Shown here: positions 36,474 through 55,046 of the stretch, piece after piece | Position numbering within the stretch: the first letter of the stretch is position 1 | Layout: each line of letters opens with the position of its first letter | Assembly (NCBI RefSeq): GCF_001428895.1 | Contig: NZ_LMJA01000012.1 | Location: forward strand, 373,313 to 437,312 | Source of the DNA: Mycobacterium sp. Root265 | GTDB taxonomy: Bacteria > Actinomycetota > Actinomycetes > Mycobacteriales > Mycobacteriaceae | DNA length: 64,000 nucleotides | Reading direction: 5' to 3' | Translations under genes and position numbers: made by a program | Notes under the pieces: generated by a model | The model's database searches: none | Seen by the model: the letters and a program-made list of their open reading frames with translations, nothing else | What the model was told of the DNA's origin: nothing

Positions 36474-36549
36474 TGTTCTCCTACTTCTCGCGGGCCGAAA
36501 GGCGATGACATGTCCGACGAACTGCGACAGATGCAACACCCGAGTGACA

Positions 36550-36565
36550 CTGTACGACTGTACAG
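36550..36565. promoter_or_regulatory. Operator of the oxidative island (copy 1)
   Basis: CTGTAC-GACT-GTACAG, perfect dyad, between the SnoaL-like/aldehyde dehydrogenase unit and the divergent TetR gene, 77 bases before the former and 48 before the latter. Confidence 0.75.
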
Positions 36566-36612
36566 CAGTCTCGAGGTGTCACAATACGAACAATCGACGG
36601 AACGAGGAGACC

Positions 36613-37257
36613 ATGGCAACGTCGCGGCGAGTGGGCGCCGAAACGTCCAAGACAAGGGACACGCTGCTCGACTGGGTCGAGAAAATGATGTTGGACGAGG
36701 GATATGCGAGCGTCACCTACCGTGCCCTCGCCACCAAGGCCGAGATCAGCCCCAGCCTGGTGCAGTACTACTTTCCCAGCCTCGATGACATCTTCCTCGC
36801 CGCGATCCGCCGGTACTCCGAACGGAACCTCACCTTTCTGGTCGACGCGTTGACCAAACGCGCAGACGACCCCCTTCGCGCCGTCTGGGAGTACAGCTGG
36901 GACGAGGCGACGGGCGCGCTGATCACCGAATTCATGGCACTGGGCAATCACCGCAAGTCGATCCGCAGTGAAATCGCCGCCGTTACCGAAAGCGTGCGTG
37001 AGGCACAGCTCGCCGCGCTGGTGGCCAAATACGGCAAGGATGCCCGCCCCGTCGGCGACCTATCGCTTCCGGCCCTGCAACTACTGATGTCGGGCCTGCC
37101 CAAACTGCTCAACTTGGAGGAGAACATCGGCGTGAAGTCTGCGCACTCCGAGGTCACCACCGCCTTCGAGCGGTTCATCGACGCGGTCGAACCCCCGAAG
37201 ACCGCAACCCGCAAGCGCAAGACCGCGCCGCGGCGCCGAACACCGACAGCCGGCTGA
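36613..37257 (+). CDS. TetR family regulator, probable master regulator of the island
   Basis: 214-residue TetR regulator. HTH at about 15-62: DTLLDWVEKMMLDEGYASVT, YRALATKAEISPSLVQYYFP. The ligand domain is helical and the last 20 residues are basic (PKTATRKRKTAPRRR). It is the only regulator encoded between 34.4 and 52.9 kb, its promoter carries the shared palindrome, and it sits at one end of the set, so it is the best candidate for binding all eight copies. Direct binding is inferred. GAGGAGA upstream supports the ATG at 36613. Confidence 0.85.
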   Translation: MATSRRVGAETSKTRDTLLDWVEKMMLDEGYASVTYRALATKAEISPSLVQYYFPSLDDIFLAAIRRYSERNLTFLVDALTKRADDPLRAVWEYSWDEATGALITEFMALGNHRKSIRSEIAAVTESVREAQLAALVAKYGKDARPVGDLSLPALQLLMSGLPKLLNLEENIGVKSAHSEVTTAFERFIDAVEPPKTATRKRKTAPRRRTPTAG

Positions 37258-37320
37258 CTCGTTCGCGCGATCCGACGGCCATATTGCTGTAGCGACAACG
37301 TGTTTGGCGGCTTGGCTGCG

Positions 37321-38476
37321 TCAATTCCGCGGCAGACCCAGAACCCGCTGCGCGATGATGTTGCGCTGAATCTCCGATGTGCCGCCGGCTATGGTGGCGC
37401 CGAAACTGCGTAGGTACCGCGAGAACCAGCTGCTGGTGTAGCAATCCAGATGAAACGGAGCGAACGCACCGGTCTGTTCCGGGTCGCACAATCCAGCCTG
37501 CCCGGACGACATGAGCGCGGCATCTGCAGCGGCCTGAATAGACTCCGAACCAAGGAGTTTGAGCACCGACATCGACGCAGGGTTGCCGACCCCTCGGTTC
37601 GCACGGCTCAATTCAGCCGAGCCCAGCAGTCGCAGGGCCCAATTGTCCATGACCAGCGTGGCGTAGGCGTCCCGATCCAGCGGGGTCGTCGGCTTCCAGT
37701 CCTCGATGAACTCCTCCAACCGTTCGGCGTAGCTGAGCCACAGCAGTGTTCGTTCATGGCCGAGCGATCCGTTCGCCACTTTCCAGCCCTGGTTGAGCTG
37801 CCCGACAAGATTCTCTGCAGGCACCCGGACATCGCTGAAGAACACCTCGTTGAAATCGACATCGTCGAGGCCGCAGGCAGACGCGAACGGACGCCTGGTC
37901 ACGCCGTCGAGGTCAGTCGGGATCACCAGCACACTGATCCCGGCATGCTTGGCAGCGTCGGGGGCGGTGCGCACCAGGGTGAACAGAACAGCGGCGTCAT
38001 GCGCGCCCGAGGTCCAGACTTTCTGACCGTTGACCACGAAGTGATCACCGTCGAGTTCGGCGCGGGTTCGCAGCGAGGCCAGATCCGAGCCTGCACCGGG
38101 TTCACTCATCCCCAGGGCTGCAGTGATCTCTGCCCGCAGAATCGGAATAGCCCACCGGCGCTGCTGTTCTGGCGTCCCGAATTGGATCAGTGAGGCCGCG
38201 ATGATGCCGACACCTTGAGGGTTATACGTCTGATTCGAAATAGACGTACTGCTGGACCACGCTCGCGTTGCGGCCGCCGAACTCCGGTGGGTATGCGGGC
38301 TGGAGCCAGCCGTGATCGAAGAGTGTCCGCTGCCAGCGCCGCGCCCAATCCGGTATGTGTGCACTGGAAGTCGACCGTTCTGAGGCGGCTTCAGCTTCGG
38401 CCGGTTGATGTGCACTGAGGAAGTCGGTGAACTCTCGACGAAAATGCTCGACATCAGGAGCGAAGTTCAGTTTCAT
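37321..38476 (-). pseudogene. Acyl-CoA dehydrogenase with an internal frame break
   Basis: N-terminal part (38476 to about 38235) starts MKLNFAPDVEHFRREFTDFL and reads to QQYVYFE; the frame then ends in TAA. The rest, in another frame, resumes at TYNPQGVGIIAASLIQFG and continues normally through ALGMSEPGAGSDLASLRTRA and GGTSEIQRNIIAQRVLGLPR to the stop at 37321. A short stretch that links FEE to YNPQG in relatives seems missing, so this looks like a small deletion rather than a one-base miscall. Joined, it would be about 380 residues. It is the last gene of the operon starting at 42642 and probably makes no active enzyme if the sequence is right. Confidence 0.8.
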
Positions 38477-38483
38477 CTGCGGC

Positions 38484-39344
38484 TCACCGCATCACGTGCG
38501 GATATTGGACATATGGGTGGACGTCGAACATGTCGCGGTACGAGGGTGGCTGACGATCGTCTTCGTCCACGATGCCGTATTTGACAGCCAGTTCGGCACC
38601 GATCAGCGTCCGCCCACTGAGTGCCATCAGCTCGGGATCCTGGTAGAGCGCCCACATGACGTGTCCGGTCAACTCCGGGGTCTCGGCGGTATCCAGGATG
38701 TGTCCGAACTTCTCCGGTTTGCTCGCGATGATGGCGCGCACCCGGTCAGTGAGCAGGGAACCCATCCAGATCGACACCGCGGCAACACCGAATTCACGGA
38801 GGTCGTAGGCCATGTCGGCGGCCATCTTGTCGGTGCCGGCCTTCGGCACTCCGTACGCCGGGCCGAAGGCGTAGTGCGTGCCGCCCGAGGATGAGGTGAA
38901 CGCCACCAAGCCTTTGGGCTGGTCGAGCATCAGCGGTGCGGCATAGACCGTCGCAACGTAGCTGCTGCGCAAGCCAACGCCGAGGGTGTCGATCACGTTC
39001 AACGGTTCCTGCCAGAACTTGGTGCGTCCCATCATCTCGTCGCGGATGATCGCGGCGTTGTTGACCAGGATGTCAAGTTTTCCGTGTTCCTCGCCGATTT
39101 GGTCGAACAGGGCTTTCACCTGTTCATCGTCGGCGTGATCGACCCGCACGGCGATTCCCTTCCCACCCGCTTCGGTCACCCGCGCCGCCGTCTCATCGAT
39201 GGTGCCCGACGACGTCGCGCCATCGCCGGTGGTCCGGCCCGTGACATAGACAGTGCAGCCGTGGCTGCCGAGGGCAGTCGCGATACCCGCCCCCGCTCCG
39301 CGGCTTGCACCGGTGACTACGGCTACTACGGTGTCGTCAGACAT
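38484..39344 (-). CDS. Short-chain dehydrogenase/reductase, DHRS1-like
   Basis: 286 residues. NAD(P) motif TGASRGAGAGIA at about 12-23, NNAAIIRDE, catalytic Ser in FTSSSGG, and YGVPK as the YxxxK. The long insertion after the first helix and the C-terminal tail resemble DHRS1-type members. The ATG at 39344 has GGGAG six bases upstream; an in-frame ATG at 39377 is also possible. Third SDR-type step in the operon; 7 bases upstream of the acyl-CoA dehydrogenase remnant. Confidence 0.88.
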   Translation of the reverse strand: MSDDTVVAVVTGASRGAGAGIATALGSHGCTVYVTGRTTGDGATSSGTIDETAARVTEAGGKGIAVRVDHADDEQVKALFDQIGEEHGKLDILVNNAAIIRDEMMGRTKFWQEPLNVIDTLGVGLRSSYVATVYAAPLMLDQPKGLVAFTSSSGGTHYAFGPAYGVPKAGTDKMAADMAYDLREFGVAAVSIWMGSLLTDRVRAIIASKPEKFGHILDTAETPELTGHVMWALYQDPELMALSGRTLIGAELAVKYGIVDEDDRQPPSYRDMFDVHPYVQYPHVMR

Positions 39345-39434
39345 GTTGTCTCCCGGTGGTACGTCGTTGACATTCATGTACCCATACGTCTGAACAGCCC
39401 GTGCGCGAATGTGGCGCTCCCGCAGGGCCAGACG

Positions 39435-40622
39435 CTATGCGTTGCTGGATTCAAGCTCGATGTCGAACTCCGAAAGGTATTCGGCAAACACCGGCTTGAG
39501 TTCAGCCACAGAAAGCCCGTACTGGTCGAGCGAGTAGTTGTTCAGACCGAATCTGGTCTGCGGGTGATTCGACAGCCACGACCGCATGCGATTCTCGGTA
39601 TCCACGGCGAAATCGTCTCCGGCCCAATCGTAGATGCGCCGCATGACACCCATCGGGTCGCGCATCATCTCCGAGTAGTACATGTGGAAGAACCGGTCGT
39701 CACCGATCCGATCACGGGTTCGGAGCGGGCGCTCGACGTGTTCCTTCATCTGCGCCTTGACGTTGCGGCCGAGGGCTTCACGGTCGATCACATCGGCGTG
39801 CTGCACCGTGCTCTTCGGCAGCATGTGCAGATTTGCAAGCGATCCCGCGGCCTTGTATGGATCACGGTGGGCCCAGATGAGGCGCGCGTCCGGAAACACG
39901 TTCAACAGGGTGTCGAGGTACACCGAGTGCGAGGGCATCTTCAGGCTCCAGGTGCCGGGTACCGTCGACTGCAGAACCTGCAGGTATCGGCGTTGATACC
40001 GGTACGTGCTCGTCAGGTCTGCCTCTTCGAACAGCCATTTCGAGTAGCTCGACGAGGGCATGTACGCGTCCCATGCCAAACCTTTGAAGTCCTGGGTGTG
40101 GATGAACATGTCCTCCGTGGGACCGTCGGCATCCTCCCAGTGCGGGAGCGGCATTTTCGCTTCCTGCACGAACTTCAGAATCGAGGCCTGCTCCTCAAGC
40201 ATCGCCAGGCATCGCGGATCGGTCCGGTGCGTCTCAGGTGTCGCCGGCGGGACGGGATTCATGCATTCCCAGTGCAGCAGCGACCGCCGCTCTGCGTCCT
40301 GATCGAGCAGGCAGCTGATAACTGTCGTACCGGTGCGCGGCATCCCGATGATGATGAGCGGCTTCTCGACGGGCGCGTCGAGTACCGACTCGTGTGACTT
40401 CACGTAGTCGTGCACTTGCAGGCGGCGGCCAAGCGCGTCTGCGAACAACCCCATCATGTGCTCTCGGCCGGCGACCGTGAACGCCGGGGACCCGTTGACC
40501 TCATCGAGGAGCAGGGCCAGACCCTCACGCCAGCTGTCGGAGTCAAGGTCGGTCAGACCAGTACGTTGCGCGGCGACCTTCAGCAGGTCGTCGGGAGTCG
40601 CGACATCGTCGAACTCACTCAT
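39435..40622 (-). CDS. PAPS-type sulfotransferase family protein
   Basis: 395 residues. The P-loop-like 5'-phosphosulfate site IIIGMPRTGTTVIS is at about 88-101; WSLKMPSHSVYLDTLLNVFP and WAHRDPYKAAGSLANL match the 3'-phosphate-binding region of sulfotransferases, with a conserved Arg. It should transfer a sulfo group to an alcohol. Sulfotransferases are common in mycobacterial lipid metabolism; here the gene is embedded between SDR genes, so a catabolic intermediate is a possible acceptor. Fourth gene back from the promoter at 42642, 32 bases after the SDR at 40655. Confidence 0.87.
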   Translation of the reverse strand: MSEFDDVATPDDLLKVAAQRTGLTDLDSDSWREGLALLLDEVNGSPAFTVAGREHMMGLFADALGRRLQVHDYVKSHESVLDAPVEKPLIIIGMPRTGTTVISCLLDQDAERRSLLHWECMNPVPPATPETHRTDPRCLAMLEEQASILKFVQEAKMPLPHWEDADGPTEDMFIHTQDFKGLAWDAYMPSSSYSKWLFEEADLTSTYRYQRRYLQVLQSTVPGTWSLKMPSHSVYLDTLLNVFPDARLIWAHRDPYKAAGSLANLHMLPKSTVQHADVIDREALGRNVKAQMKEHVERPLRTRDRIGDDRFFHMYYSEMMRDPMGVMRRIYDWAGDDFAVDTENRMRSWLSNHPQTRFGLNNYSLDQYGLSVAELKPVFAEYLSEFDIELESSNA

Positions 40623-40654
40623 GTGTATTGCCTTTCCTCACGTTTCGGGTGATG

Positions 40655-41401
40655 TCAGACGGTCAGATATCCGCCGTCGACGGCAAGGGTGGTGCCAGTG
40701 ATGTACCGAGCTGCGTCGGCACTGAGGAAGAGCACTGCCCCGGATACTTCGTCGGGCATGCCCATTCGGGCCATGGGCGTGTGGCGCATCTCGGGTTCGA
40801 GCAGTTCGGGGATATCGAGCACGGGGTGAGTGGTCCTGGTATCGATCAGGCCGGGCGCCACCGCGTTGACGCGGATTCCGTCGCCGACCCAACGACGGGC
40901 AAGGTTCTTGGTGAGCGCAACCAGGCCGGCCTTGGCCGAGCTGTAGGCGGGTACTGCGATGGCCGAGACGAACGCCGACATCGACACGATGGTGACGACG
41001 CTGGCCCCACCGGACGCCTTGCTCGCCTTGAGGTTTTCGTGACATGCCATGGTCAGGCGCATCGGTGCGAACATGTTCACTTCGATCGAACCGGCGTAAC
41101 CCTCCGGGTCCCACTCGTCCTTGCCGCCGGCATATGGCGCGCCGGCGTTGTTGATCAGCACGTCGAGGCCATCGAGGGATGCGGCAAGCGCATCGACGGA
41201 CCCCAGGTCCGACAGCTGGCACTGCCGATAGTCGAAGGCGCTGAGGTCGTCGTCGTAGGCACCGGCATCAGCGCGAGTGCCGGTGATCACCACGGCGGCC
41301 CCTGCCCGAGCGAAGTCCGTGGCGATGGCATTGCCGATCCCGCTGGTTCCGCCTGTGACCAGCACCCGCGAGCCGGAGAAATCGAAGTCAACGGTATTCA
41401 C
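40655..41401 (-). CDS. Short-chain dehydrogenase/reductase
   Basis: 248-residue classical SDR: TGGTSGIGNAIATDF (about 17-31), NNAGAPY, catalytic SMSAFVSAIAVPAYSSAKAG with YxxxK, and PGLIDTRTT after it. Likely NAD(P)-dependent alcohol/ketone interconversion. Its start overlaps the stop of the MBL gene (ATGA). Confidence 0.9.
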   Translation of the reverse strand: MNTVDFDFSGSRVLVTGGTSGIGNAIATDFARAGAAVVITGTRADAGAYDDDLSAFDYRQCQLSDLGSVDALAASLDGLDVLINNAGAPYAGGKDEWDPEGYAGSIEVNMFAPMRLTMACHENLKASKASGGASVVTIVSMSAFVSAIAVPAYSSAKAGLVALTKNLARRWVGDGIRVNAVAPGLIDTRTTHPVLDIPELLEPEMRHTPMARMGMPDEVSGAVLFLSADAARYITGTTLAVDGGYLTV

Positions 41402-42642
41402 TTGGCGACCTTCAACTCATCGATCGATTTGATCAGCCATGCTCGCTCCCAGAAGTTCTCGGCATCCGCGAGCAGTGCCTCGTGGGCATCGATCGCCACC
41501 TCGCGGGCGCCCGCATCGGTGGGTTCCACGGCGAGCACAATGTCCGTCAGATGCAGTGCGCGCACTGGATCCCGCTGGGCGACATGCTTTCGGGCAGTGT
41601 CGACGAGCGCCTGAGCGCCTGCGACCGCGACCAGGTCCGCTGCCGCGGCGCTGGGTGGTACGGAATAGAGTTCCGTCGTCGAGCGGTGGTGGAACCACCC
41701 GGCATACATTTCCCAGACAGCCCGCACATTCCACAGGGTTCGTCCGTACCCCTCACCGATATCCAGGTCATCGGGTATGCGCACCTCCCGCATGGCGGTG
41801 TGCACATCGGCGCCCGTGTTCATGAATTCGACGGTCTGGTCGTGGACGGCCTGCATGGCGTCGCGCATTGCCGTGACTTCTTCGGCGATTCGGTCGCGGC
41901 CCTCGATGGGACCGAAGTGGCCGGTGATCAGGCGTTTGGGCGCGAAATCCAACACAGTATCGAGCGATTCGATGTACTGAAGGGGATCGCGGTACCGATC
42001 GCCGCGAATCGTCATGAGGTTGGGGACGTGACCGAACAGCGGCCCGAACAGATTTCCGGTGAACAGGACGTCGTCGTCGGGCAGCGATACGACGATCGAG
42101 TCCGTGGTTTCTCCGCCAGGCGTCCAGGCTAGCTCGAACCTGCGTCCCCCGATCTCCATCTCGTAACGGTCGGCGAAGGTCGTAGTCGGCTCCGGAAACG
42201 AGAAGTCGATGGTCGACGAATCGACCGTTTGGAAGAACTCCATGAAAGTCTCGGAGATCTTCTTGAAGGCGAAGGACGTCTTGGATGCGCGCACGGGCAT
42301 CAAGCGGTCATTGTCATCGCGCCAGTATCGGTAGTTCGCGTGCATGATCACGTCTGTGCCGGCGTCTCGCAGCGCGTTGACGCCACCCCAATGATCGGCA
42401 TGCCCCTGCGTCACGAATATCGCGGGGGTTGGGCCGGCAAGGTGTTCGAACGCCTGTTTCCGCATCGGCGCCTCGAACACCAGCCCGGTGTTGATCATCA
42501 CCCGTCCGGCATCGGTCGTAATGGCGTAGGCGTTCGACACGCCCTCAGACATCCAGATGTCATCGCCCAGTGACGTCGCACGGTCACCCGTCGCCGCGGC
42601 CAGGTCGGCAGCGCCTGGGCGTTCCCGATGAATTGCGACCAT
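41398..42642 (-). CDS. Metallo-beta-lactamase-fold hydrolase with alkylsulfatase-type C-terminal domain
   Basis: 414 residues. An MBL domain (about 20-230) with TQGHADHWGG, WTPGGETTDSIVV, LFTGNLFGPLFG and ITGHFGPIEG, followed by a helical alkylsulfatase dimerisation-like region (WNVRAVWEMYAGWFHHRSTT, then repeated-helix ALVDTARKHVAQRDPVRALH). This layout matches linear alkylsulfatases and relatives. The first His of the usual THxHxDH motif is Gln here (TQGHADH), so metal binding is altered and the reaction is uncertain. The ATG at 42642 is preceded by GGAGGG. First gene of a five-gene operon, 35 bases from the operator at 42678. Confidence 0.85.
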   Translation of the reverse strand: MVAIHRERPGAADLAAATGDRATSLGDDIWMSEGVSNAYAITTDAGRVMINTGLVFEAPMRKQAFEHLAGPTPAIFVTQGHADHWGGVNALRDAGTDVIMHANYRYWRDDNDRLMPVRASKTSFAFKKISETFMEFFQTVDSSTIDFSFPEPTTTFADRYEMEIGGRRFELAWTPGGETTDSIVVSLPDDDVLFTGNLFGPLFGHVPNLMTIRGDRYRDPLQYIESLDTVLDFAPKRLITGHFGPIEGRDRIAEEVTAMRDAMQAVHDQTVEFMNTGADVHTAMREVRIPDDLDIGEGYGRTLWNVRAVWEMYAGWFHHRSTTELYSVPPSAAAADLVAVAGAQALVDTARKHVAQRDPVRALHLTDIVLAVEPTDAGAREVAIDAHEALLADAENFWERAWLIKSIDELKVAK

Positions 42643-42677
42643 CTCATGCCCTCCGTTGTCCCGTACAGTCGAAGATG

Positions 42678-42693
42678 CTGTACGTACGTACAG
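42678..42693. promoter_or_regulatory. Operator of the oxidative island (copy 2)
   Basis: CTGTAC-GTAC-GTACAG, perfect dyad, between the MBL operon and the divergent SDR at 42779. An extra half-site CGTACAG lies 10 bases away. Confidence 0.75.
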
Positions 42694-42778
42694 GAGATAC
42701 TCTCCGACCGTCTTTGCGATGTCAATGAAGCAAGCAATCGGTGCGGCGGAAGCGCAGATGGAATGACAGGAGCGATAC

Positions 42779-43548
42779 ATGACCCTCCGTGGACTTCAAG
42801 GCAAAGTGGCCGTAATCATCGGCGGCGCTTCCGGACTGGGCGCGGCGACCGCGGTTCGACTCGGCCAAGAGGGTTGCCGCGTTGTCGTTGGTGACATTGC
42901 TTCGGATGGTGCCCAGCGGACCGCCGATGCAATCAGGACCAACGGTGGAAACGCGTCGGCGCTCCCGTGCGACCTCTCAGATCCGGCGTCGATCAAGTCC
43001 CTCTTCGTCGCGGCCAGGGACACCTTCGGTGGAGTCGACGCCGTCTTCAACGTGGGTGCGGACATGAGTACGCTCGCCGCCGACACGGACGTCGTGGACA
43101 TCGATCTGGACGTGTGGGATCGAGTCATGAGCGTCAACCTGCGCGGCTACGTCAGCGCCATGAAGCACGCCATCCCGGTGATGCTCGAGGGTGGCGGCGG
43201 AGCGATCGTGAACATGTCGTCCACGGCCGCCTTCCAGGGGGAATCGACGCGACCTGCCTACGCCACCGCCAAGGCCGGGATCGGCGCCCTCACCCGCCAC
43301 GTGGCGTCACGCTGGGGTAAGGAGGCCGTTCGGTGCAACGCCGTCGCCCCCGGCTTCACCGCCACGGACACAATCAGATCCGCACCGCAGTGGCCGGCGC
43401 TCGAGTCAGCCGCACTGCAGCGATGCGCAGTCCGCGCGTCGGCGAACCCGACGACGTCGCATCGCTGGTGGCATTTCTGCTTTCGGACGAAGGGTCGTGG
43501 ATCAACGGCCAGGTGATCAGCGTTGACGGTGGAACCGTACTGCGCTGA
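42779..43548 (+). pseudogene. Short-chain dehydrogenase/reductase with a frameshift near 43422
   Basis: 256-residue classical SDR when joined. The first frame has IIGGASGLGAATAVRLGQEG and catalytic STAAFQGESTRPAYATAKAG, and continues to about 43422. After that only the neighbouring frame reads like an [23 protein letters not shown], then [11 protein letters not shown]. Inserting one base after CAGCG restores the normal [12 protein letters not shown] junction. So either a one-base deletion replaces the last 40 residues, or the base was lost in the sequence. GTGs and ATGs around 42779 are compatible with the start. Confidence 0.82.
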
Positions 43549-43618
43549 TACCGACGATTCGTTCCGCCAACGCTCAGGCCGCCTCTGTGCCCTGCAGGTG
43601 ACGAAGCCGAGCCGGTCG

Positions 43619-44974
43619 TCAACCGATCTGAGCCGAGTCCTTGCGTTCGGTGATCGGTCGCGCGAGTTCCTGCTCCTCGCACAGCTTCTGCAGTCGGATC
43701 ACCGTTTCCTCCACGCCCGGTCCCAGACGCTTACCCGGAGTGAACGTGGCGGGCAAGTGTCGCATGCCTTGGATGACGCCGATGGTGTCGTAATGCACGG
43801 CGCCGGCGGCATCACAGTGGTAGTCCGGCATCCGGTCCATCACCGCTGTCAGCATCGATTTGAATACGGTGCGGGCGACGTTCGACCCGATACAGCGGTG
43901 CACGCCCAGACCGAAGCTGAAATGCCGGTTGGCCTTTCGGTCCAGGAGGACCGAATCGGGATTCGCGAACAGCTCAGGGTCGCGGTTGGCCATGGCCCAG
44001 GACAGCCACAGCCGCTCGCCCTCCTGCAGTCGGGCTTCGCCGACCTCAATGGTGTCGGCGACGGTGCGCGCATCACCGGGAGCGGGAGTGAAGTAGCGCA
44101 GGAACTCTTCGGTGGCCGGGTTGAGCAACGTGTCGCGGTCGGCACTGAGTCGGCTGCGCTCCGCGGGATGTTCGGACAACCACTCCAAAGCATGTGCGGT
44201 GAGCGCAGTGGTGGTATCGAATCCGCCACCGATCAGTAGGTTGAGCATGCCGATCAACTCGATGTCCGCCGGTGGCTCATCGTCGATCCGCAGCACGGCC
44301 AAGGCGTTGATGATGCCAGGGCGCGGGGTCTCCCGGATCTCGGCGAGGTTGGTGAACAGGTCGACCACCATGTTCATGTATAGGTCTCGAATTCGGCCGG
44401 AGTCCGGAGAATTAGGGGCCGTGTACACCGAAGCGTGGGCAGGCTCGTTGTAAACGGTCCATTTGTCCAACCGCACCCCGAGCATCGCCAACGTCAGGAC
44501 AGCGGGAACGACATTGGCCAAGTCATCGACGAAATCGATCTGACCGCTCTCGATCCGGTCGTCAATGCACGCTCGCACGATCTCATCGACGAATGGCTCC
44601 CACCGCCGAACCGCGGCAGGCGACAGGTAGGGATTGAGCGCCGAACGATAGTACCGGTGCTCGGGATCGTCCATCTCCAGCATGCCGCCGCGAAAACCCG
44701 CGGAATCGATCATCTTCGGGATCGAGATACCCCTGTACCCGCGCCGCTGGTTGTGCACGTCGTGGTCGTTGGAGACGTGCGGGCACCGTGCGAGATCGAA
44801 GACCTCCTGGCCACCGGCAGCGACCCAGTGCCCCTCGTAGGTCTCGGTCCACGCTATCGGACACTTGGTGTGCATCTCATGGGTGATGTCGAGGAAGTTC
44901 TCACGGTATTCCGGCGTGTGGCGGTCGAAGTGATAGCTCGGTGCGGTGTCGCTGTTGTCGGGCGCTGTGGTCAT
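43619..44974 (-). CDS. Cytochrome P450
   Basis: 451-residue bacterial class I P450. I-helix LIGGGFDTTTALTAH, ExxR in EEFLRYF, and heme-binding FGLGVHRCIGSN with the axial Cys at 361. Probably hydroxylates a lipophilic substrate with electrons from the ferredoxin encoded immediately upstream. Its ATG at 44974 overlaps the ferredoxin stop (ATGA). The C-terminus is long (ETVIRLQKLCEEQELARPIT) compared with related P450s. Confidence 0.92.
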   Translation of the reverse strand: MTTAPDNSDTAPSYHFDRHTPEYRENFLDITHEMHTKCPIAWTETYEGHWVAAGGQEVFDLARCPHVSNDHDVHNQRRGYRGISIPKMIDSAGFRGGMLEMDDPEHRYYRSALNPYLSPAAVRRWEPFVDEIVRACIDDRIESGQIDFVDDLANVVPAVLTLAMLGVRLDKWTVYNEPAHASVYTAPNSPDSGRIRDLYMNMVVDLFTNLAEIRETPRPGIINALAVLRIDDEPPADIELIGMLNLLIGGGFDTTTALTAHALEWLSEHPAERSRLSADRDTLLNPATEEFLRYFTPAPGDARTVADTIEVGEARLQEGERLWLSWAMANRDPELFANPDSVLLDRKANRHFSFGLGVHRCIGSNVARTVFKSMLTAVMDRMPDYHCDAAGAVHYDTIGVIQGMRHLPATFTPGKRLGPGVEETVIRLQKLCEEQELARPITERKDSAQIG

Positions 44975-45219: not shown

Positions 45220-45274
45220 CCTGCCTCCTTCATCTGGTTACCTGGATTGACCGGTTTCTTTGCGAACTCACGGA

Positions 45275-46018
45275 TCACATGACAGCTGCACCGTTGACGC
45301 CGATGACCTGACCGTTGATATAGCCGGCAGCCTCCGAGCAGAGGAAGGCACAGACCGCGCCCACATCCTCGGCAATTCCAAGTCTGCGAGCCGGAATCGC
45401 TTGGGTGAGAAACTCGGTCGGCGGCAACTTGCCTTCGCTCTGCTGCTGACGCAACATCGGCGAGTCAATGACGAACGGCGGCACGGTGTTCGCGGTGATG
45501 CCCTTGGCGGCGTAATCGATGGCCAGGGTCTTTGTCATCGCGATCACACCACCCTTGGTGGCGGAGTAGTGCCCCTGTTTGGGCGCGCCCTGCTGACCCG
45601 CGGCCGAAGAAATCGTCACGATCCGCCCCCATTTTGCGGCCACCATGTCGTTCAGCGCAGCGCGCACCGAGAGGAAGGTCCCCGTGAGGTTGACCGCCAG
45701 GTAGCGGTTCCATTCGTCCAGGCTGATCTGGTCGAAACGGGTGAACCCCGCGATCGCCGCGCTGGTCACCAGGATCTCGACGGGACCAAGCTGGCTACGC
45801 ACCAGATCAAAAGCGTGCTGCGTGCCTTGCTCGTCGGAGACGTCGACACCGATGCCTCTGGCCTGGGCGCCGAGACTTTGCAGGTCGGTGGCGACTGCAT
45901 CGGCAGCTTTGGCATTGATATCCAGCACTGCCACCTTGTGACCATCGCGGGCGAGGGCGGTCGATATCGCCCGGCCCAGGCCGGAGGCGCCTCCGGTCAC
46001 CACCGCTACACGGATCAC
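45275..46018 (-). CDS. Short-chain dehydrogenase/reductase
   Basis: 247-residue classical SDR of the FabG-like type: TGGASGLGRAISTAL (about 8-22), SAAIAGFTRF, catalytic SSAAGQQGAPKQGHYSATKG. The start is a GTG at 46018 with AAGGA upstream. First gene of a three-gene unit (SDR, ferredoxin, P450), 36 bases from the operator at 46054. Probably oxidises the alcohol made by the P450. Confidence 0.9.
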   Translation of the reverse strand: MIRVAVVTGGASGLGRAISTALARDGHKVAVLDINAKAADAVATDLQSLGAQARGIGVDVSDEQGTQHAFDLVRSQLGPVEILVTSAAIAGFTRFDQISLDEWNRYLAVNLTGTFLSVRAALNDMVAAKWGRIVTISSAAGQQGAPKQGHYSATKGGVIAMTKTLAIDYAAKGITANTVPPFVIDSPMLRQQQSEGKLPPTEFLTQAIPARRLGIAEDVGAVCAFLCSEAAGYINGQVIGVNGAAVM

Positions 46019-46053
46019 TGCACATCCTTGGGTCTTATCGGCACATCACATTG

Positions 46054-46069
46054 CTGTACGAATGTATAG
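46054..46069. promoter_or_regulatory. Operator of the oxidative island (copy 3)
   Basis: CTGTAC-GAAT-GTATAG, one mismatch from a perfect dyad, upstream of the SDR/ferredoxin/P450 unit. Confidence 0.65.
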
Positions 46070-46110
46070 CGCATCCTAGACCTATCGCACAAGCGTCAAC
46101 GCCGGCGGCG

Positions 46111-46881
46111 CTACACGCCGGCGGGGCCGGGCGCACCGTGCATGTACAGGGTCTGGCCAGAGCAGAAGCTGGACGCATCGGAGGCGAAAAATAGGACGCC
46201 GTAGCCAATCTCATCCGGCTCCCCCAATCTGCCGAGTCCGTTGGACATGGCGATCGCCTCGGGATCCAGGCCGTATCTGGCGGCGTCGTCGGTGAGGGTG
46301 GCCGCGCGAACCGCCCCGACCGCGATCGCGTTCACACGAACACCCTTCTTGGCCCACGCCGCCGCCATCGAACCGGTCATCGCATTGACGGCCGCCTTGG
46401 CCGCGCTATAGGGAGCGGCTTGGGGCATTGCCAGCAGGCTTGCACCGGACGAGATGTTGACGATGGCGCCCTTACCCTGGGCGAACATCGGCTTGGCAGC
46501 AGCCTTGGACAGGTGCCAGACGGAACCGAAGTTCAGTGCCATGGTTCGCTCGAAGTCATCGTCGGGCCACTTCATAATCGATTTGGTTTCCGCGCCGCCG
46601 GCGCAATTGACGAGAATGTCCAACTTCCCGAATTCCGCCATTGTGGTGTCGACGAGCTCGCGGCACGCCTCCGCCGACGTCACATCGCACGAGGTGGACA
46701 GCGCGCGACACCCCAGCTCGCGCACGTCCTTGGCCGTCGACTCCAGCGGTGCAGAACGGCGCCCGGCCAGCACGACGTCGGCGCCCCGTTCGGCGAGTAC
46801 CAACGCAGAGGCGCGGCCGATCCCGGTGCCGCCACCGGTTATCAGGGCCACACGGCCATCGAGGGCAAACCGATCGTCCAC
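46111..46881 (-). CDS. Short-chain dehydrogenase/reductase
   Basis: 256-residue classical SDR: TGGGTGIGRASALVLAERGA, NCAGGAE, catalytic SSGASLLAMPQAAPYSAAKA, and a C-terminal FCSGQTLYMHG. The GTG at 46881 is preceded by AGGAG seven bases earlier; longer open reading upstream overlaps the divergent promoter and is not protein-like. It is a single-gene unit with its own operator at 46937, divergent from the P450 at 47068. Confidence 0.88.
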   Translation of the reverse strand: MDDRFALDGRVALITGGGTGIGRASALVLAERGADVVLAGRRSAPLESTAKDVRELGCRALSTSCDVTSAEACRELVDTTMAEFGKLDILVNCAGGAETKSIMKWPDDDFERTMALNFGSVWHLSKAAAKPMFAQGKGAIVNISSGASLLAMPQAAPYSAAKAAVNAMTGSMAAAWAKKGVRVNAIAVGAVRAATLTDDAARYGLDPEAIAMSNGLGRLGEPDEIGYGVLFFASDASSFCSGQTLYMHGAPGPAGV

Positions 46882-46936
46882 TACATCACTCCTGAGCCTC
46901 GTGGCGGCAACGATTACCCGGTACAGCCGCCGATTG

Positions 46937-46952
46937 TTGTACGAGCGTATAG
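46937..46952. promoter_or_regulatory. Operator of the oxidative island (copy 4)
   Basis: TTGTAC-GAGC-GTATAG, two arm positions off a perfect dyad, in the intergenic region between the SDR at 46881 and the P450. A half-site GTACAG lies 16 bases to its left. Confidence 0.6.
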
Positions 46953-47007
46953 CATCAGCCACGGTGCGGATCGTGGAAACCAGTCGCTTGCCGCGAAAAC
47001 GTGCGAG

Positions 47008-47023
47008 TTGTACTGTCGTATAG
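47008..47023. promoter_or_regulatory. Operator of the oxidative island (copy 5)
   Basis: TTGTAC-TGTC-GTATAG, 45 bases before the preferred P450 start. Confidence 0.6.
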
Positions 47024-47067
47024 CATCTCTCATGCTTCTGCCCCATTCCCTTGCCGAGGAGGCTGCG

Positions 47068-48255
47068 TTGAGCGACTTGTACTACGACCCCTGGGACTTC
47101 GACATCGACCTGGATCCGTACCCGACCTACAAGAGGCTCCGGGACGAAATGCCGGTCTACTACAACGAAAAACACGACTTCTGGGGAGTGAGTCGTTACG
47201 CCGACGTGGACGCGGCGCTCAAGGACACCACCCGGCTCAGCTCCGCAAAGGGTGACATTCTCGAGGTGGTGATGACCGATCCCGTCATGCCACCCGGAAT
47301 TTTCATCAACGAAGACCCGCCACTGCACACCATCCACCGGGCAATCGTGTCGCGGGCCTTCACCCCCAAAAAGATGCGTGCCATCGAGGACAAGATTCGT
47401 AATTTCTGCGTCGCATGCCTGGATCCGCTGGTCGGTGGTGACCGGTTCGACTTCGTCGAGGATCTCGGCGCTGAACTCCCGATGCGCACCATCGGCATGC
47501 TGGCCGGCATTCCTGACTCCGAGCAACCCGCGGTGCGCGAGCACGCCAATCAGGTGCTGCGCAATGAGGCCGGTAAGCCGATGGAGATCAAGAAGGACCG
47601 GTACTTCACCGGAGAGATGTTTGGCGAGTATGTCGCATGGCGCGAGAAGAATCCCTCCGACGACCTGATCACCGAATTGCTCAACGTCGAGTTCGAAGAC
47701 GAGACCGGCACCACCCGCAAGTTGCACAAGCAGGAACTCATCGTGTTCTTGGCTGTTGTCGCCGGGGCCGGAGTCGAGACGACCGGCCGGCTGTTCGGCT
47801 GGATGGGCAAGGTCCTGGCCGAGCACCCCGACCAACGCGCCGAGCTGGCGGCCGACCCATCAAAGATCCCGCTGGCGATCGAGGAACTGCTGCGTTTCGA
47901 ACCGCCGGGGCCGCACGTCGCCCGCTACATCGCCACCGACGACGTCAGTTTCCAAGACCAAGTGGTGCCCGCGGGCAGTCCACTCCTGATCATGCTGGCC
48001 TCGGCCAACCGCGATGAGCGCCACTTCGATGACCCCGATCGGTTCGACATTCGCCGCAAGCCGGGCGGCCACCTCACGTTCGGACGTGGCGCTCACTTCT
48101 GCGTCGGCTCTCCGCTGGCACGGCTGGAGGGTCGGGTGGCTCTCGAAGAAGTGCTCAAGCGCTGGCCCACATGGGAAGTCGACATGTCCAAGGCCACCCG
48201 CTCGCGCACGTCCACCGTGCGTGGGTGGGACACCATGCCGGCGATTGTCGGATAA
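47068..48255 (+). CDS. Cytochrome P450
   Basis: 395-residue bacterial P450: I-helix VVAGAGVETTGRLFG, ExxR in EELLRFE, heme-binding FGRGAHFCVGSP with Cys345. The N-terminus (LYYDPWDFDIDLDPYPTYKR) resembles mycobacterial P450s acting on bulky hydrophobic compounds. The TTG at 47068 is the preferred start because GAGGAGG is five bases upstream; an ATG at 47032 is the alternative but nearly touches the operator at 47008-47023. It is followed two bases later by the mycofactocin-type SDR. Confidence 0.9.
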   Translation: MSDLYYDPWDFDIDLDPYPTYKRLRDEMPVYYNEKHDFWGVSRYADVDAALKDTTRLSSAKGDILEVVMTDPVMPPGIFINEDPPLHTIHRAIVSRAFTPKKMRAIEDKIRNFCVACLDPLVGGDRFDFVEDLGAELPMRTIGMLAGIPDSEQPAVREHANQVLRNEAGKPMEIKKDRYFTGEMFGEYVAWREKNPSDDLITELLNVEFEDETGTTRKLHKQELIVFLAVVAGAGVETTGRLFGWMGKVLAEHPDQRAELAADPSKIPLAIEELLRFEPPGPHVARYIATDDVSFQDQVVPAGSPLLIMLASANRDERHFDDPDRFDIRRKPGGHLTFGRGAHFCVGSPLARLEGRVALEEVLKRWPTWEVDMSKATRSRTSTVRGWDTMPAIVG

Positions 48256-48257
48256 TC

Positions 48258-49079
48258 ATGAGTGACTCACCACGCCGGGTCGCTGTCATCACCGGTGCGG
48301 CGCGAGGACAGGGTCGCAGCCACGCCGTTGCGCTGGCCGCCCAGGGTATCGACATCATCGCGATCGACCGCTGCGCCGACATCGACTCCATCCCCTACCC
48401 GTTGGCCACCAACGCCGACCTCGACGAGACCGCGGACCTGATTCGCGGTGCGGGTGCACGGGCGGTCACTGCGGTCGCCGACGTTCGCGACCTTGGCGGC
48501 CTGCAAGCCGCCGTCGACCGTGGCGTCAGCGTTCTCGGCAACGTCAGCATCGTCATCGCCAATGCGGGCGTGGTGGGAATGGGGCTGACAGACCCTCTCG
48601 ACCAAGACGTGTATCGCGACATCGTCGAGACAAACCTATCCGGGGTCTGGCACACGATCGCCACGACCGCCCCGTCCATGATCCGGGGCGGCACCGGAGG
48701 ATCCATGGTGCTGATCAGTTCCATGCAGGGATTGGTCGGCCGCGGTGGCGATGGAAGCGCTGCGACCTTCGCCTACGCTGCGTCCAAGCACGGCGTTGTC
48801 GGGCTGATGCGATCCGCGTCGTACGCCTACGCATCTCACAACATCCGGGTGAATACTGTGCACCCCACTGGTGTTGCGACCCCGATGATCTTCAACCAGC
48901 ACATGGCCGATATGTTCGCCGCGAACCCGGAAGGCAGCGCCATGACCGGCAACCTGTTGCCGGTGCCATATGTCGAGCCGCAAGATGTCACCAACGCCGT
49001 GCTGTTCTTGATCAGCGACAGCGCCCGCTACGTCACCGGAATGACCATGCCCGTGGACGCGGGCTTCGCGGTGATGTGA
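48258..49079 (+). CDS. Mycofactocin-coupled-type SDR oxidoreductase
   Basis: 273-residue SDR with the signature of the mycofactocin-coupled family (TIGR03971 type): GAARGQGRSHAVALAAQG and the extra segment YPLATNADLDETADLI before the NADH-site helix, which holds the cofactor in a non-exchangeable state. Catalytic SSMQGLVGRG and YAASK. Such enzymes pass electrons to mycofactocin rather than freely exchanging NAD. The stop of the P450 is two bases before its ATG, so it likely oxidises the P450 product. Confidence 0.87.
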   Translation: MSDSPRRVAVITGAARGQGRSHAVALAAQGIDIIAIDRCADIDSIPYPLATNADLDETADLIRGAGARAVTAVADVRDLGGLQAAVDRGVSVLGNVSIVIANAGVVGMGLTDPLDQDVYRDIVETNLSGVWHTIATTAPSMIRGGTGGSMVLISSMQGLVGRGGDGSAATFAYAASKHGVVGLMRSASYAYASHNIRVNTVHPTGVATPMIFNQHMADMFAANPEGSAMTGNLLPVPYVEPQDVTNAVLFLISDSARYVTGMTMPVDAGFAVM

Positions 49080-49094
49080 TCGACCGCTTCGCAC

Positions 49095-50696
49095 TCACCG
49101 CGCATTGCGGATCAAATCGGCTGCCCGCCAGGCAATCGCCATGATCGGTCCGTTCAGGTTTCCCGCAACCATCGTGGGAAGAACCGAGCAGTCGACCACC
49201 CGAAGCCCATTGACGCCCCGCACCCGCAACTGGTCATCGACCACATCGTCATCGTTCGGCCCCATGGCCAGGCTGCCCGCTGCGTGATAGCCGCAGTAGC
49301 CGCCGGCGAGCACGCTGTCGACCAACTCGTCCTCACTCTGCACACCGGCGCCGGGGAATGTCTCGTGGCTGATGCGCTCGGCGATGGGCGACTGCTCGAA
49401 GATGGTGCGCATCATGCGCAGCATGTTCGCGGTGGCGGCGCGGTCGTAGTCGGTGTCCAGGTAGTTCGGGTCGATCCGAAGCGCCGTATCCGGCGCGCTG
49501 GAGACGATCTCGATGGAACCCTGCGAGGTCGGGCGCAAGACCATCCCCAGGCATGAGACACCGGCCTGTCGTTCGATGGCCACCGGCTCTCCGACGTTGT
49601 AGGGCGGGATGGTCCACGGGCCCATCATCAGTTGGGCGTCGGGACGCTCGGCATCGGGCTGCACTTTGGCGAAGCCCACGATGTCGAAGGACGGCGCAGC
49701 CAATGGCCCCTTGCGGGTGGCAAGATACTTCGCGCTGGTCATGGCCTGCCCGAGATTGGTGGCCAACTGACGGTTGTACCCGAGATCATCGCGAAGCTGT
49801 AAACGCAGCGTCGCGCAACGGTGTTCGAGTAAACCCCGGCCCACTTTGTCGCGTTCGAGGTAGATGCGTACACCGGCGGCGTCCAGCACGCTGCGCGGAC
49901 CGATACCCGACATCTGCAGCAGTCGTGGGCTGTTGAGGCTGCCGAGGGCAACGATGACCTCTCGGGATGCGCGCACCGTTTCGCGACCACCCTTGTGCAG
50001 AGCTAGGACTCCGACGGCTCGGCCTGCTTCCAAGACGAGCCGCTCGACGACCGTCCCTGTTCGCACGGTGAGGTTCCGGCGGCTGCGCGCGGGCTTCAGG
50101 AATGCGGTCGCGGCACTGATGCGCCGGCCGTTCTTGATGGTGGAGGTGGCATAGCCGATGCGTTCGCCATCATGCTCGTTGATGTCCTCGACCACCTGCA
50201 GACCAATCGCGGCACCGGATGCCAACATCTCCCGGCACAGCGGGTCCGGGTCCCTGGGGACCGAGATGTGCAACGGCCCGCCCGTCCCGCGCGTGCGCGA
50301 GGCCCCGAACTCGTTGCCCTCGAAAGCCTTGAAGATGGGCAGCATGTCATCCCATCCCCAGCCCTTGTTGCCAAGGCCCTCCATGATGTCCCAGTCGGCC
50401 CTGGTTCCGCGGTTGTAGATCATCCCGTTGATCGAGCTCGATCCGCCGAGCACTTTGCCGCGCATCCATTGTTCGGTGTGGCGGTTGGGGCCCAACGGTG
50501 TCGTCGAGTAGTGCCACATGTGCTTCTCGCTGTCGAACAGTTTGCCCGCGCCCTTGGGCACCATGAACAGCGGATTGAGATCGGACCCACCGGCCTCCAA
50601 CAGCAGCACAGACACGGCCGGATCCTCAGACAATCGGTTGGCCAGCACGCAGCCTGCTGAACCCGCTCCCGCAATGATGTAGTCGTACGTCGGCAT
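49095..50696 (-). CDS. GMC oxidoreductase (choline-dehydrogenase-like alcohol oxidase)
   Basis: 533-residue flavoprotein: FAD site YIIAGAGSAGCVLANRL (residues 6-22), GGSSSINGMIYNRG, the second GMC signature GSLNSPRLLQMSGIGP, and C-terminal GYHAAGSLAMG with the catalytic His, then GLRVVDCSVLPTMVAGNLNG. It oxidises an alcohol to an aldehyde or ketone. It ends 15 bases from the convergent mycofactocin-type SDR and has its own operator at 50737. GGAG is nine bases before the ATG. Confidence 0.92.
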   Translation of the reverse strand: MPTYDYIIAGAGSAGCVLANRLSEDPAVSVLLLEAGGSDLNPLFMVPKGAGKLFDSEKHMWHYSTTPLGPNRHTEQWMRGKVLGGSSSINGMIYNRGTRADWDIMEGLGNKGWGWDDMLPIFKAFEGNEFGASRTRGTGGPLHISVPRDPDPLCREMLASGAAIGLQVVEDINEHDGERIGYATSTIKNGRRISAATAFLKPARSRRNLTVRTGTVVERLVLEAGRAVGVLALHKGGRETVRASREVIVALGSLNSPRLLQMSGIGPRSVLDAAGVRIYLERDKVGRGLLEHRCATLRLQLRDDLGYNRQLATNLGQAMTSAKYLATRKGPLAAPSFDIVGFAKVQPDAERPDAQLMMGPWTIPPYNVGEPVAIERQAGVSCLGMVLRPTSQGSIEIVSSAPDTALRIDPNYLDTDYDRAATANMLRMMRTIFEQSPIAERISHETFPGAGVQSEDELVDSVLAGGYCGYHAAGSLAMGPNDDDVVDDQLRVRGVNGLRVVDCSVLPTMVAGNLNGPIMAIAWRAADLIRNAR

Positions 50697-50736
50697 CCGG
50701 CACTTCTCCTACTGATCGAGCGAAGCAATCCCCGCG

Positions 50737-50752
50737 CCGTACGAACGTACAG
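50737..50752. promoter_or_regulatory. Operator of the oxidative island (copy 6)
   Basis: CCGTAC-GAAC-GTACAG, one mismatch from a perfect dyad, upstream of the GMC gene and 28 bases from copy 7. Confidence 0.65.
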
Positions 50753-50780
50753 CATCTGCGTGTCCTGCGTCACCATTGCG

Positions 50781-50796
50781 CTGTACGCATGTACAG
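50781..50796. promoter_or_regulatory. Operator of the oxidative island (copy 7)
   Basis: CTGTAC-GCAT-GTACAG, perfect dyad, 22 bases before the SDR start at 50819. Confidence 0.75.
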
Positions 50797-50818
50797 CTAA
50801 CGGTGATAGCGTGCAGAC

Positions 50819-51631
50819 ATGACCCCGACTTCGGAAACGCTCGGCACCGCACCCGGCCGCGGACGCCTGCGCGGCCGTCGAATCGTCGTTATCGGCGCCG
50901 GATCTCAACCCTCCCCGGACCCCGAAGTGACCATCGGGAACGGTCGTGCGATCGCAGTGCTGTGTGCGCGCGAAGGTGCGGCCGTGGCGTGCGTCGACAG
51001 GGACAAGGAGGCCGCCGACGAAACGGCGCGCCTGTGCGCCGACGAGGGCGGCGAAACTGCCACCATCATCGCGGATGTGCGCGATGCCGACCAGTGCGAA
51101 CGACTGGTGCACCAGGCCCACACCCAGCTCGGGGGACTCGACGGGTTGGTCGCCAACGTCGGTTACGGCGCCGGCGGCGGGCTCGCCGACACCACGCCAG
51201 AGATCTGGGACGACGTGTTCGCGGTCAACGTGCGCTCACACTTTCTGACCGCCCGCGCCGCGATGCCGCTGCTCGCCGATGACAGCGCGATCGTGTTCAT
51301 CGGATCAGCGGCGGGCATCAGAGCGGGCACCAGACTACCGGCGTACGACTCATCGAAGACCGCCCTGAACGGACTCTGCCGGCATGTGGCACTCGAAGGC
51401 GCCCCCCGCGGCATTCGCGCCAACCACGTGATTCCAGGCGCGGTGGACACTCCCCTGGGCCGCGTCGGCGATCAGCTCGTCCACATGCGGACGAAGATCA
51501 AATGGCCGCTGGGACGCCAAGCCTCGGCGTGGGACATTGCCTACGCCACCGTGTTCATGCTCAGCGGAGAATCCAGCTACATCACGGCCCAATCGCTTGT
51601 CGTCGATGGCGGCAAGACTCAGTTCGGCTGA
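50819..51631 (+). CDS. Short-chain dehydrogenase/reductase
   Basis: 270-residue SDR. The N-terminal glycine motif is split by an insertion (IVVIGAGSQPSPDPEVTIGN, then GRAIAVLCAREGA), which is seen in some actinobacterial SDRs. Catalytic SAAGIRAGTRLPAYDSSKTA with YxxxK. Short distance (22 bases) from operator to ATG and no Shine-Dalgarno suggest a leaderless or nearly leaderless transcript. It is followed by a nitroreductase after 24 bases. Confidence 0.87.
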   Translation: MTPTSETLGTAPGRGRLRGRRIVVIGAGSQPSPDPEVTIGNGRAIAVLCAREGAAVACVDRDKEAADETARLCADEGGETATIIADVRDADQCERLVHQAHTQLGGLDGLVANVGYGAGGGLADTTPEIWDDVFAVNVRSHFLTARAAMPLLADDSAIVFIGSAAGIRAGTRLPAYDSSKTALNGLCRHVALEGAPRGIRANHVIPGAVDTPLGRVGDQLVHMRTKIKWPLGRQASAWDIAYATVFMLSGESSYITAQSLVVDGGKTQFG

Positions 51632-51655
51632 TCGCGACCATCGTAGAGAGAGCGA

Positions 51656-52297
51656 ATGCCAATGGAGATATCAAGTCTCAGCTTCGACGAGGTTCTGTCC
51701 ACCACCCGGGCAGTCCGCCTGCGCCTGGACTTCGAACGAACCGTGCCGCGCGAGGTGCTGATGGATTGCCTCAGACTGGCCGTGCAAGCACCGAGCGCAT
51801 CCGACTCACAGGACTGGGAGTGGATATTCGTCGACGATCCAGCAAAGAAAGCCGCGATCGCCGATGTGTACCGGGCCAACCGAGCAGCAATCGACGCACA
51901 CTCCGCTTCGGTCGACACAAACGAAACACCCACTCGGATAGCCAGATCCGGTTCTCACCTCGTCGATCACATGCAGGATGCGCCCTTTCTCCTGATCCCG
52001 TGCCAGAAGGGCCGCGCCGAGAGGGGGCCCGCCGGTATGGGCGCCACCTTCTGGGCATCGGTGATCCCGGCTACGTGGAGCTTCTGTCTGGCACTGCGCT
52101 CCCGCGGGCTGGGCACCTGCTGGACCACGCTGCACCTGTTCGGGGGCGGCGAGAAGAAGGTTGCCGAGATCCTGGGTGTCCCCTACGACGAGTACAGCCA
52201 AGTCGGCCTGTTCCCCATCGCATACACCAAAGGCACCGACTTCAAGCCAGCCGCCAGATTGCCGCCTGAGCACGTATCCCATTGGAACAGTTGGTGA
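51656..52297 (+). CDS. Nitroreductase family flavoprotein
   Basis: 213-residue FMN-dependent nitroreductase/ene-reductase-like enzyme: TTRAVRLRLDFERTVPREVL, LRLAVQAPSASDSQDWEWIF and WSFCLALRSRGLGTCWTTLH followed by EILGVPYDEYSQVGLFPIAY. It could reduce a quinone, nitro group or conjugated double bond. Co-transcribed with the SDR at 50819. The remnant at 34211-34391 is a second, decayed member of the same family in the window. Confidence 0.87.
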   Translation: MPMEISSLSFDEVLSTTRAVRLRLDFERTVPREVLMDCLRLAVQAPSASDSQDWEWIFVDDPAKKAAIADVYRANRAAIDAHSASVDTNETPTRIARSGSHLVDHMQDAPFLLIPCQKGRAERGPAGMGATFWASVIPATWSFCLALRSRGLGTCWTTLHLFGGGEKKVAEILGVPYDEYSQVGLFPIAYTKGTDFKPAARLPPEHVSHWNSW

Positions 52298-52329
52298 AAG
52301 ACCTCGACTGGCGCGCTGGAGGTTGAGGG

Positions 52330-52854
52330 TCACGGCTCGTCGGTGACGTCCTCGATATTCATGTCCTTGGCACCCTTCCCGATGACGAAGAATGTGCCCG
52401 GCTTGAGCACGAAGTCAGTCGCATTGCCGCAGATCGTGGCAGTTACAGGCGAATTGGCCCACTTGGAACCGGTACCGATGGTTCCTGACACATTCGCTTC
52501 GACCGGGTGGTCAACAGGGCAGGCCGGGCTGGATACGTTGACGATCGTGCTGGCGATGCCGACCAGGTCCATGCTCTTGCCGTTGACGAAAGGCAACCCC
52601 CAAGTGATCATTTCGGTACCGGGCCCCGTACGATTGGTTTGCCCGGAACCGGTCGTGCCGTTTTCCCTGACGCAGCCCGTCAGGTAGTGGGGCCAAACAG
52701 TATTGGGGCCGTAAAAGTCTGAACACTGAATTCGGACTCCTTTCGGCACCGGCTTCGGACCAGCAGAGGCTGGCGCAGCCAACGCCGATCCCAGAAGCCC
52801 CAAGACCGCGACGGCGATGACGGACCGCCGACCCAACGTGACACCATGTTCCAT
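52330..52854 (-). CDS. Small secreted protein of unknown function
   Basis: 174 residues with a signal peptide (SVIAVAVLGLLGSALAAPASA, cleavage near residue 33) and a cysteine-containing mature part rich in Gly/Thr/Pro (IQCSDFYGPN, GCVRENG, SPACPVDHP, TICGNATDF). No family recognised. The operator at 52931 places it in the island regulon, so it may be a surface or transport partner of the substrate. The ATG at 52854 is used; there is only a weak AGGGG-type site upstream. Confidence 0.7.
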   Translation of the reverse strand: MEHGVTLGRRSVIAVAVLGLLGSALAAPASAGPKPVPKGVRIQCSDFYGPNTVWPHYLTGCVRENGTTGSGQTNRTGPGTEMITWGLPFVNGKSMDLVGIASTIVNVSSPACPVDHPVEANVSGTIGTGSKWANSPVTATICGNATDFVLKPGTFFVIGKGAKDMNIEDVTDEP

Positions 52855-52930
52855 TTCACTGCCCCTTCTCGACGCGGAGAACGCGCTCGGTCGCTGAGCT
52901 GAGCATCTCGGCCAGCTCCGCCCGACCACG

Positions 52931-52946
52931 TTGTACATATGTACAG
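52931..52946. promoter_or_regulatory. Operator of the oxidative island (copy 8)
   Basis: TTGTAC-ATAT-GTACAG, with TGTACATATGTACA fully symmetric, upstream of the secreted protein. It lies in the 52855-53162 gap, which holds no gene; the other site there is the dyad at 53103. Confidence 0.7.
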
Positions 52947-55039: not shown

Positions 55040-55046
55040 GAGGAAC

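Follow-up and report, generated by a model that had tools for sequence, protein, structure and literature searches.

In this study, we analysed a 64,000-nucleotide stretch of the genome of Mycobacterium sp. Root265 (contig NZ_LMJA01000012.1, positions 373,313 to 437,312; hereafter the window). It contains an 18-kb island of oxidative enzyme genes, a gene for a TetR-family regulator at 36613-37257 (+), and eight copies of the palindrome CTGTAC-N4-GTACAG. Eight operators within 16 kb, with almost none elsewhere in the genome, are a notable feature of this DNA. The comparison of genomes makes it very likely that the TetR protein encoded at 36613 (hereafter TetR 36613) uses the eight palindromes as operators, and it would repress up to nine units in addition to its own gene. 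The palindrome and TetR 36613 are inherited together, and the palindrome closely precedes the same set of enzyme genes, and mostly the TetR gene too. The island is thus very probably a further TetR-controlled catabolic regulon.

Results

An earlier note on this DNA had described eight palindromes, and a pattern count in the window found all of them at the same starts. The short-chain dehydrogenase/reductase (SDR) and cytochrome P450 genes are lettered here by position. Three copies are exact. Operator 1 (36550-36565) lies between the SnoaL gene (-) and the TetR gene (+), its start 63 bp upstream of the latter. Operator 2 (42678-42693) is located between the hydrolase unit (-) and SDR (c) (+), and operator 7 (50781-50796) is upstream of SDR (g) at 50819-51631 (+). 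One mismatch was found in operator 3 (46054-46069, upstream of SDR (d) at 45275-46018, -), operator 6 (50737-50752, upstream of the GMC oxidoreductase gene, -) and operator 8 (52931-52946, upstream of the secreted protein gene 52330-52854, -). Operator 4 (46937-46952, upstream of SDR (e) at 46111-46878, -) and operator 5 (47008-47023, upstream of P450 (b) at 47068-48255, +) carry two mismatches each. Every copy had been called intergenic. This holds given putative internal starts at about 42645 (hydrolase) and about 52854 (last protein), which we chose from domain and signal-peptide positions; if the longest open frames are taken, the copies at 42678 and 52931 fall within them. The GCATC reported beside many copies is partly the last arm base followed by CA, so that the palindrome reads TG-CTGTAC...GTACAG-CA.

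The whole genome (6.67 Mb in 30 contigs, window included) was then scanned, a check proposed with the earlier note, and the motif did not occur at background frequency. The pattern YTGTACNNNNGTACAR was found at four places, 4/4 of them in the island, and its reversed-pattern control at none. YYRTACNNNNGTAYRR was found at 11 places, eight of them in the island, and its reversed-pattern control at four. At up to three mismatches, the 20-bp sequence TGCTRTACGNNYGTAYAGCA was found at 12 distinct places, namely the eight of the island and four others, which have three mismatches each. Within the window alone, the excess at this tolerance was modest (26 matches versus 12.7 expected; highest of 100 shuffles, 22), and the weight of the motif excess there rests on the stronger matches.

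Orthologues of TetR 36613 (59-82% identical) were detected in 32 other genomes, which gives 33 of the 148 genomes of the genus sample with its own. The cut was set at more than 250 bits; the next best match (180 bits, 49% identity) was treated as a paralogue. The strict motif was present in 35 of the 148 genomes, comprising 26 of the 33 with the TetR orthologue and 9 of the 115 without it. The Fisher value for this co-occurrence was 2.8e-15, which is not one of independent trials because the genomes are related. The islands were chosen by the orthologue; the 148 genomes of the strict-motif scan were not. In the orthologue genomes, 41 of 42 strict copies were no more than 22 kb from the TetR gene, and the single other copy, in G059, was on another contig.

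The islands of the 33 orthologue genomes were fetched, some as short stretches because of contig ends (3.3 kb for G008), and each contained at least one copy when the TAC/GTA core was fixed and up to two mismatches were allowed. In 23 of the 33 genomes, the TetR gene has a copy that starts no more than 154 bp upstream of it. Only 2 of the 155 copies in these islands lay in coding sequence homologous to island proteins, versus about 40 expected from its 26% coverage, in a test that is blind to genes without a homologue in the Root265 island. Copies up to 200 bp upstream of gene homologues were counted most often for P450 (b) (32), SDR (d) (26), SDR (e) (25) and TetR (25), followed by GMC (17), SnoaL (10), SDR (g) (4) and the protein of 52330-52854 (2); homology matches under 55% were omitted. 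The arms of the copies are conserved and the flanks variable, and the gene order around the copies differs between islands. TG/CA flanks lengthen the palindrome to 20 bp in these copies. Arm position 3 alternates between G and A, and position 7 favours G; positions 4-6 do not vary, as they were fixed in the search pattern.

P450 (b) was examined as a target that can lie away from the TetR gene. A match of at least 64% identity was found in 30 genomes, each of which also has the TetR orthologue; the orthologue genomes without it at this level were G008, G059 and G117. Matches below 64% were treated as paralogues (the next at 60%, 555 bits), a narrower gap than for TetR. In 27 of the 30 genomes an operator ended 0-58 bp upstream of the best P450 (b) match, and no operator did so in G104, G133 and G138. 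In G099, a single 6.04-Mb contig, the P450 (b) match is 309 kb from the TetR gene and has kept the operator with two mismatches. In G027 it is on another contig than the TetR gene and has kept the operator with one mismatch. An operator kept at P450 (b) far from the TetR gene indicates a regulon, not a mere local repeat.

A scan with a 23-sequence TetR alignment gave 65 named loci, 1.25 Mb in total. In these loci the motif had 130 copies at up to one mismatch, versus at most 24 for any of 179 other arm permutations, and 33 exact copies versus at most one. At two mismatches, 63 of the 65 loci contained a copy; none was found in Rhodococcus globerulus and in one Amycolatopsis match (36%). In three Nocardia and four Williamsia loci the TetR gene is preceded by copies at a distance of 67-76 bp; in Frankia-type relatives (44-49% identity) the copies are farther from it. 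Paired operators, with starts 22 bp or 17 bp apart, were seen upstream of the TetR gene in loci L133, L135, L142 and L159 and downstream in L116, L119 and L123; such pairs would be consistent with double or cooperative sites in certain species. Locus L123, a record of Mycobacterium lepraemurium on a 4.05-Mb contig, has a TetR orthologue (67%) and four copies at up to two mismatches.

The earlier note had also proposed that TetR 36613 controls the whole set. Co-occurrence, the relatives of other genera and the distant target with its operator support this proposal, and the note was very probably right about the regulator. The protein has an N-terminal TetR helix-turn-helix (PF00440, TetR_N, 26.4 bits, cut-off 24, scored on the longer frame 36466-37257). 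As in the TetR family, a palindrome lies in the promoter of its own gene, judged by sequence only.

We examined the position of the operators relative to putative -10 boxes, which were assigned by sequence alone; homology matches under 58% were omitted from these counts. Of 77 operator sites at the SnoaL, SDR (d), SDR (e) and GMC genes, 59 contain a -10-like TACnnT on the gene strand and 15 contain one on the opposite strand. At P450 (b) sites, TATATGCT or TATGCT starts 7 or 9 bp past the operator in 8 of 31. At most targets the operator overlaps a putative -10 box or directly adjoins one, from which we infer repression by an occluded core promoter. In the proposed mechanism, TetR 36613 would bind TGCTRTACGNNYGTAYAGCA, as TetR dimers do. 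With TGCTRTACGNNYGTAYAGCA overlapping or abutting the -10 region, the TetR gene and up to nine further units would be repressed until a hydrophobic pathway intermediate releases the protein from DNA. The island enzymes would then oxidise a bulky terpenoid- or steroid-like compound, which is the weakest step of the proposal.

The gene content of the island is as follows. The aldehyde dehydrogenase gene (34396-35838, -; Aldedh 458 bits; start approximate) is related to TIGR04284 with a score below the cut-off. Directly after it, on the same strand, is a carboxymuconolactone-decarboxylase-family gene (33605-34210, start approximate), which may belong to the first unit. The SnoaL-like gene (35910-36473, -; SnoaL_4 76.5 bits; start chosen by us) is located between the aldehyde dehydrogenase and TetR genes. 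A minus-strand unit comprises, in order, an alkyl-sulfatase-like metallo-hydrolase (41398-42645; Alkyl_sulf_dimr 66.5 bits, Lactamase_B 42 bits; start chosen by us), SDR (b) (40655-41401), a sulfotransferase (39435-40622; Sulfotransfer_3), SDR (a) (38484-39377) and an acyl-CoA dehydrogenase-like protein (37321-38454). The hydrolase matches SdsA1 (2cfu, E 2.5e-18). The sulfotransferase matches the solved protein 2z6v, which we take to be STF9 of M. avium, along its length (E 2.7e-190). Neither protein belongs to the conserved core. Among the 32 other islands, the hydrolase could be placed in one (50% identity) and the sulfotransferase in three (27-32% identity).

Beyond operator 2 are SDR (c) (42779-43516, +), P450 (a) (43619-44974, -), SDR (d) (45275-46018, -) and SDR (e) (46111-46878, -; start approximate). 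P450 (b) (47068-48255, +; start approximate) is followed by the mycofactocin-coupled SDR (f) (48258-49079, +; TIGR03971 337.5 bits, cut-off 300). Among solved proteins, the GMC oxidoreductase (49095-50696, -) is nearest to 8b7s, named a chloramphenicol-inactivating oxidoreductase (305 bits). SDR (g) (50819-51631, +) and a nitroreductase-family protein (51656-52297, +) come next. The last protein (52330-52854, -) has a signal-peptide-like N terminus, belongs to no known family and gave no Pfam match up to E 1; among the 32 other islands it has a match in that of G055 only (63%). About 216 bp beyond operator 8, a second TetR gene starts at 53163, followed by a glycosyltransferase gene and a hormone-sensitive-lipase-like gene (span 53163-56042). 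This second TetR gene could also be affected through operator 8.

Discussion

Several findings weigh against the assignment of the palindromes to TetR 36613 as repressor. P450 (a) at 43619-44974 has no operator of its own, and its control would require co-transcription with SDR (d) over a gap of about 300 bp. The claim that the copies serve all units was therefore slightly too strong, and for P450 (a) it is an assumption. No copy was found within 154 bp of the TetR start in 10 of the 33 islands. The strand bias of TACnnT is confined to some targets: of 23 TetR-gene sites, 2 carry TACnnT on the gene strand, and no clear bias was seen for SDR (a) (1 of 6 versus 3), SDR (g) (1 of 4 versus 1) or P450 (b) (18 of 31 versus 15). 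In R. globerulus, whose TetR protein is 69% identical, the only copy was one at three mismatches, located downstream. At two mismatches the motif had 237 copies in the named loci, and two arm permutations were commoner (277 and 260). The sampled genomes are related, so their counts are not independent trials. The 65 named loci also overlap the genus sample, and the two tests overlap because many of the loci are species of that sample.

TetR 36613 might bind the sites and activate, or act differently at each promoter. In favour of this, the -10 overlap found at four other genes is missing from the TetR-gene sites and from several P450 (b) sites. However, the site overlaps a putative -10 box at SnoaL, SDR (d), SDR (e) and GMC, and at some P450 (b) genes such a box begins 7 or 9 bp past the site; at these positions a bound activator would obstruct polymerase, and we consider this alternative improbable. 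Less probable still is binding of the palindrome by another regulator, be it the second TetR at 53163 or a protein encoded elsewhere. The position of operator 8 about 216 bp upstream of the 53163 gene would suit such a role, but the motif follows the 36613 orthologue through the 148 genomes in a scan that was not chosen by that orthologue. The second TetR protein was judged unlikely as the binder because it was placed in none of the 32 other islands (E 1e-20).

Weak single copies in 9 of the 115 genomes without the orthologue indicate that chance copies exist. That the island copies are a repeated element or a chance likeness is nevertheless scarcely credible. They shun homologous coding sequence (2 of 155), their arms are conserved while the flanks vary, and the gene order around them differs between islands. 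The rarity of the motif in its own genome, the co-occurrence across 148 genomes and the operator at the distant P450 (b) also contradict such an origin. Repression by TetR 36613 through the palindrome is the reading that we prefer.

The enzyme set consists of two P450s, seven SDRs (one mycofactocin-coupled), a GMC oxidoreductase, aldehyde and acyl-CoA dehydrogenases and SnoaL, with the sulfotransferase and the alkyl-sulfatase-like hydrolase as local additions. This composition suggests catabolism, by stepwise oxidation, of a bulky hydrophobic compound. A more specific proposal, which we regard as rather unlikely, is that TetR 36613 is a dedicated, undescribed regulator of actinobacterial terpenoid- or steroid-like catabolism and that in this species the sulfotransferase and hydrolase were recruited into one operon, a sulfate ester being made or removed en route.

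The TetR orthologue group (33 of 148 genus genomes, with Nocardia, Williamsia and Frankia relatives) gains a precise predicted operator and a target list of oxidases without an assigned substrate. The identity of the inducer would help to assign about sixteen enzymes at once, including a close relative of a solved sulfotransferase. Paralogues with related but distinct 20-bp palindromes may provide a small natural test of how the specificity of the TetR recognition helix changes.

No description of this operator was found in full-text searches of open-access papers, of which the one by arm letters excludes little. As far as this literature was searched, the operator and its regulon are undescribed. 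No NCBIfam model of MftR, the mycofactocin regulator, was among the six families matched at 0.001. The best solved relative of P450 (a) is P450cin (CYP176A1, cineole oxidation), matched over nearly the whole chain with 172 bits. The two are distant, with GGFDTT in P450 (a) and GGIDNT in P450cin, too distant for this kinship to point to a substrate.

KstR is the repressor of cholesterol catabolism and controls lipid and steroid oxidation across multiple operons. TetR 36613 shares its family, and the DNA-binding part matches the KstR profile with 22.6 bits. The match is limited to profile positions 6-69 and does not extend over the whole length, as membership in the KstR regulon would require. 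A paralogous TetR in the same genome (C27:49234, locus L162) is about 40% identical, divergent from a P450 gene and near mce genes. Like TetR 36613, it is accompanied by a conserved palindrome of 20 bp, seen in 7 of 8 aligned upstream regions, and the outer bases of the two palindromes agree. In contrast to the island motif, the inner bases differ (TGCTRAGCA-NN-TGCTYAGCA). This palindrome has three good copies and one with two mismatches in the genome, none in the island. One copy is at L162:9112-9131 (C27:49111-49130); further copies of this type were found, one at C27:3588 and one at C30:15801, where an aldehyde dehydrogenase match follows after about 80 bp. Among 10 paralogue loci, the island motif at two mismatches was found twice, as one poor copy in L162 and one copy in L168, which is part of a G136 island.

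Another TetR gene of this genome lies beside an aldehyde dehydrogenase that scores over the cut-off of the Rv0768 family, which is presumably the position of Rv0767c. A tblastn comparison of the 36613 protein with the stretch holding that gene returned nothing at 0.01, which speaks against TetR 36613 as an Rv0767c orthologue. The 40% paralogue had been presumed to be Rv0767c, and was rejected in this role after comparison with the TetR gene beside the Rv0768-family enzyme. The island motif is absent from the contig with that enzyme. In Mycobacterium sp. VKM Ac-1817D, a regulon with a motif named motif X was assigned to the Rv0767c orthologue G155_05115 (PMC6593523); motif X is also listed in a second paper (PMC4482099). 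The regulon has 14 operons, of which 12 were up more than 3-fold with phytosterol (PMC6593523). Like the motif X regulon, the proposed island regulon combines a TetR regulator, a palindromic autoregulatory motif and operons of P450s with short-chain, alcohol and aldehyde dehydrogenases (PMC6593523).

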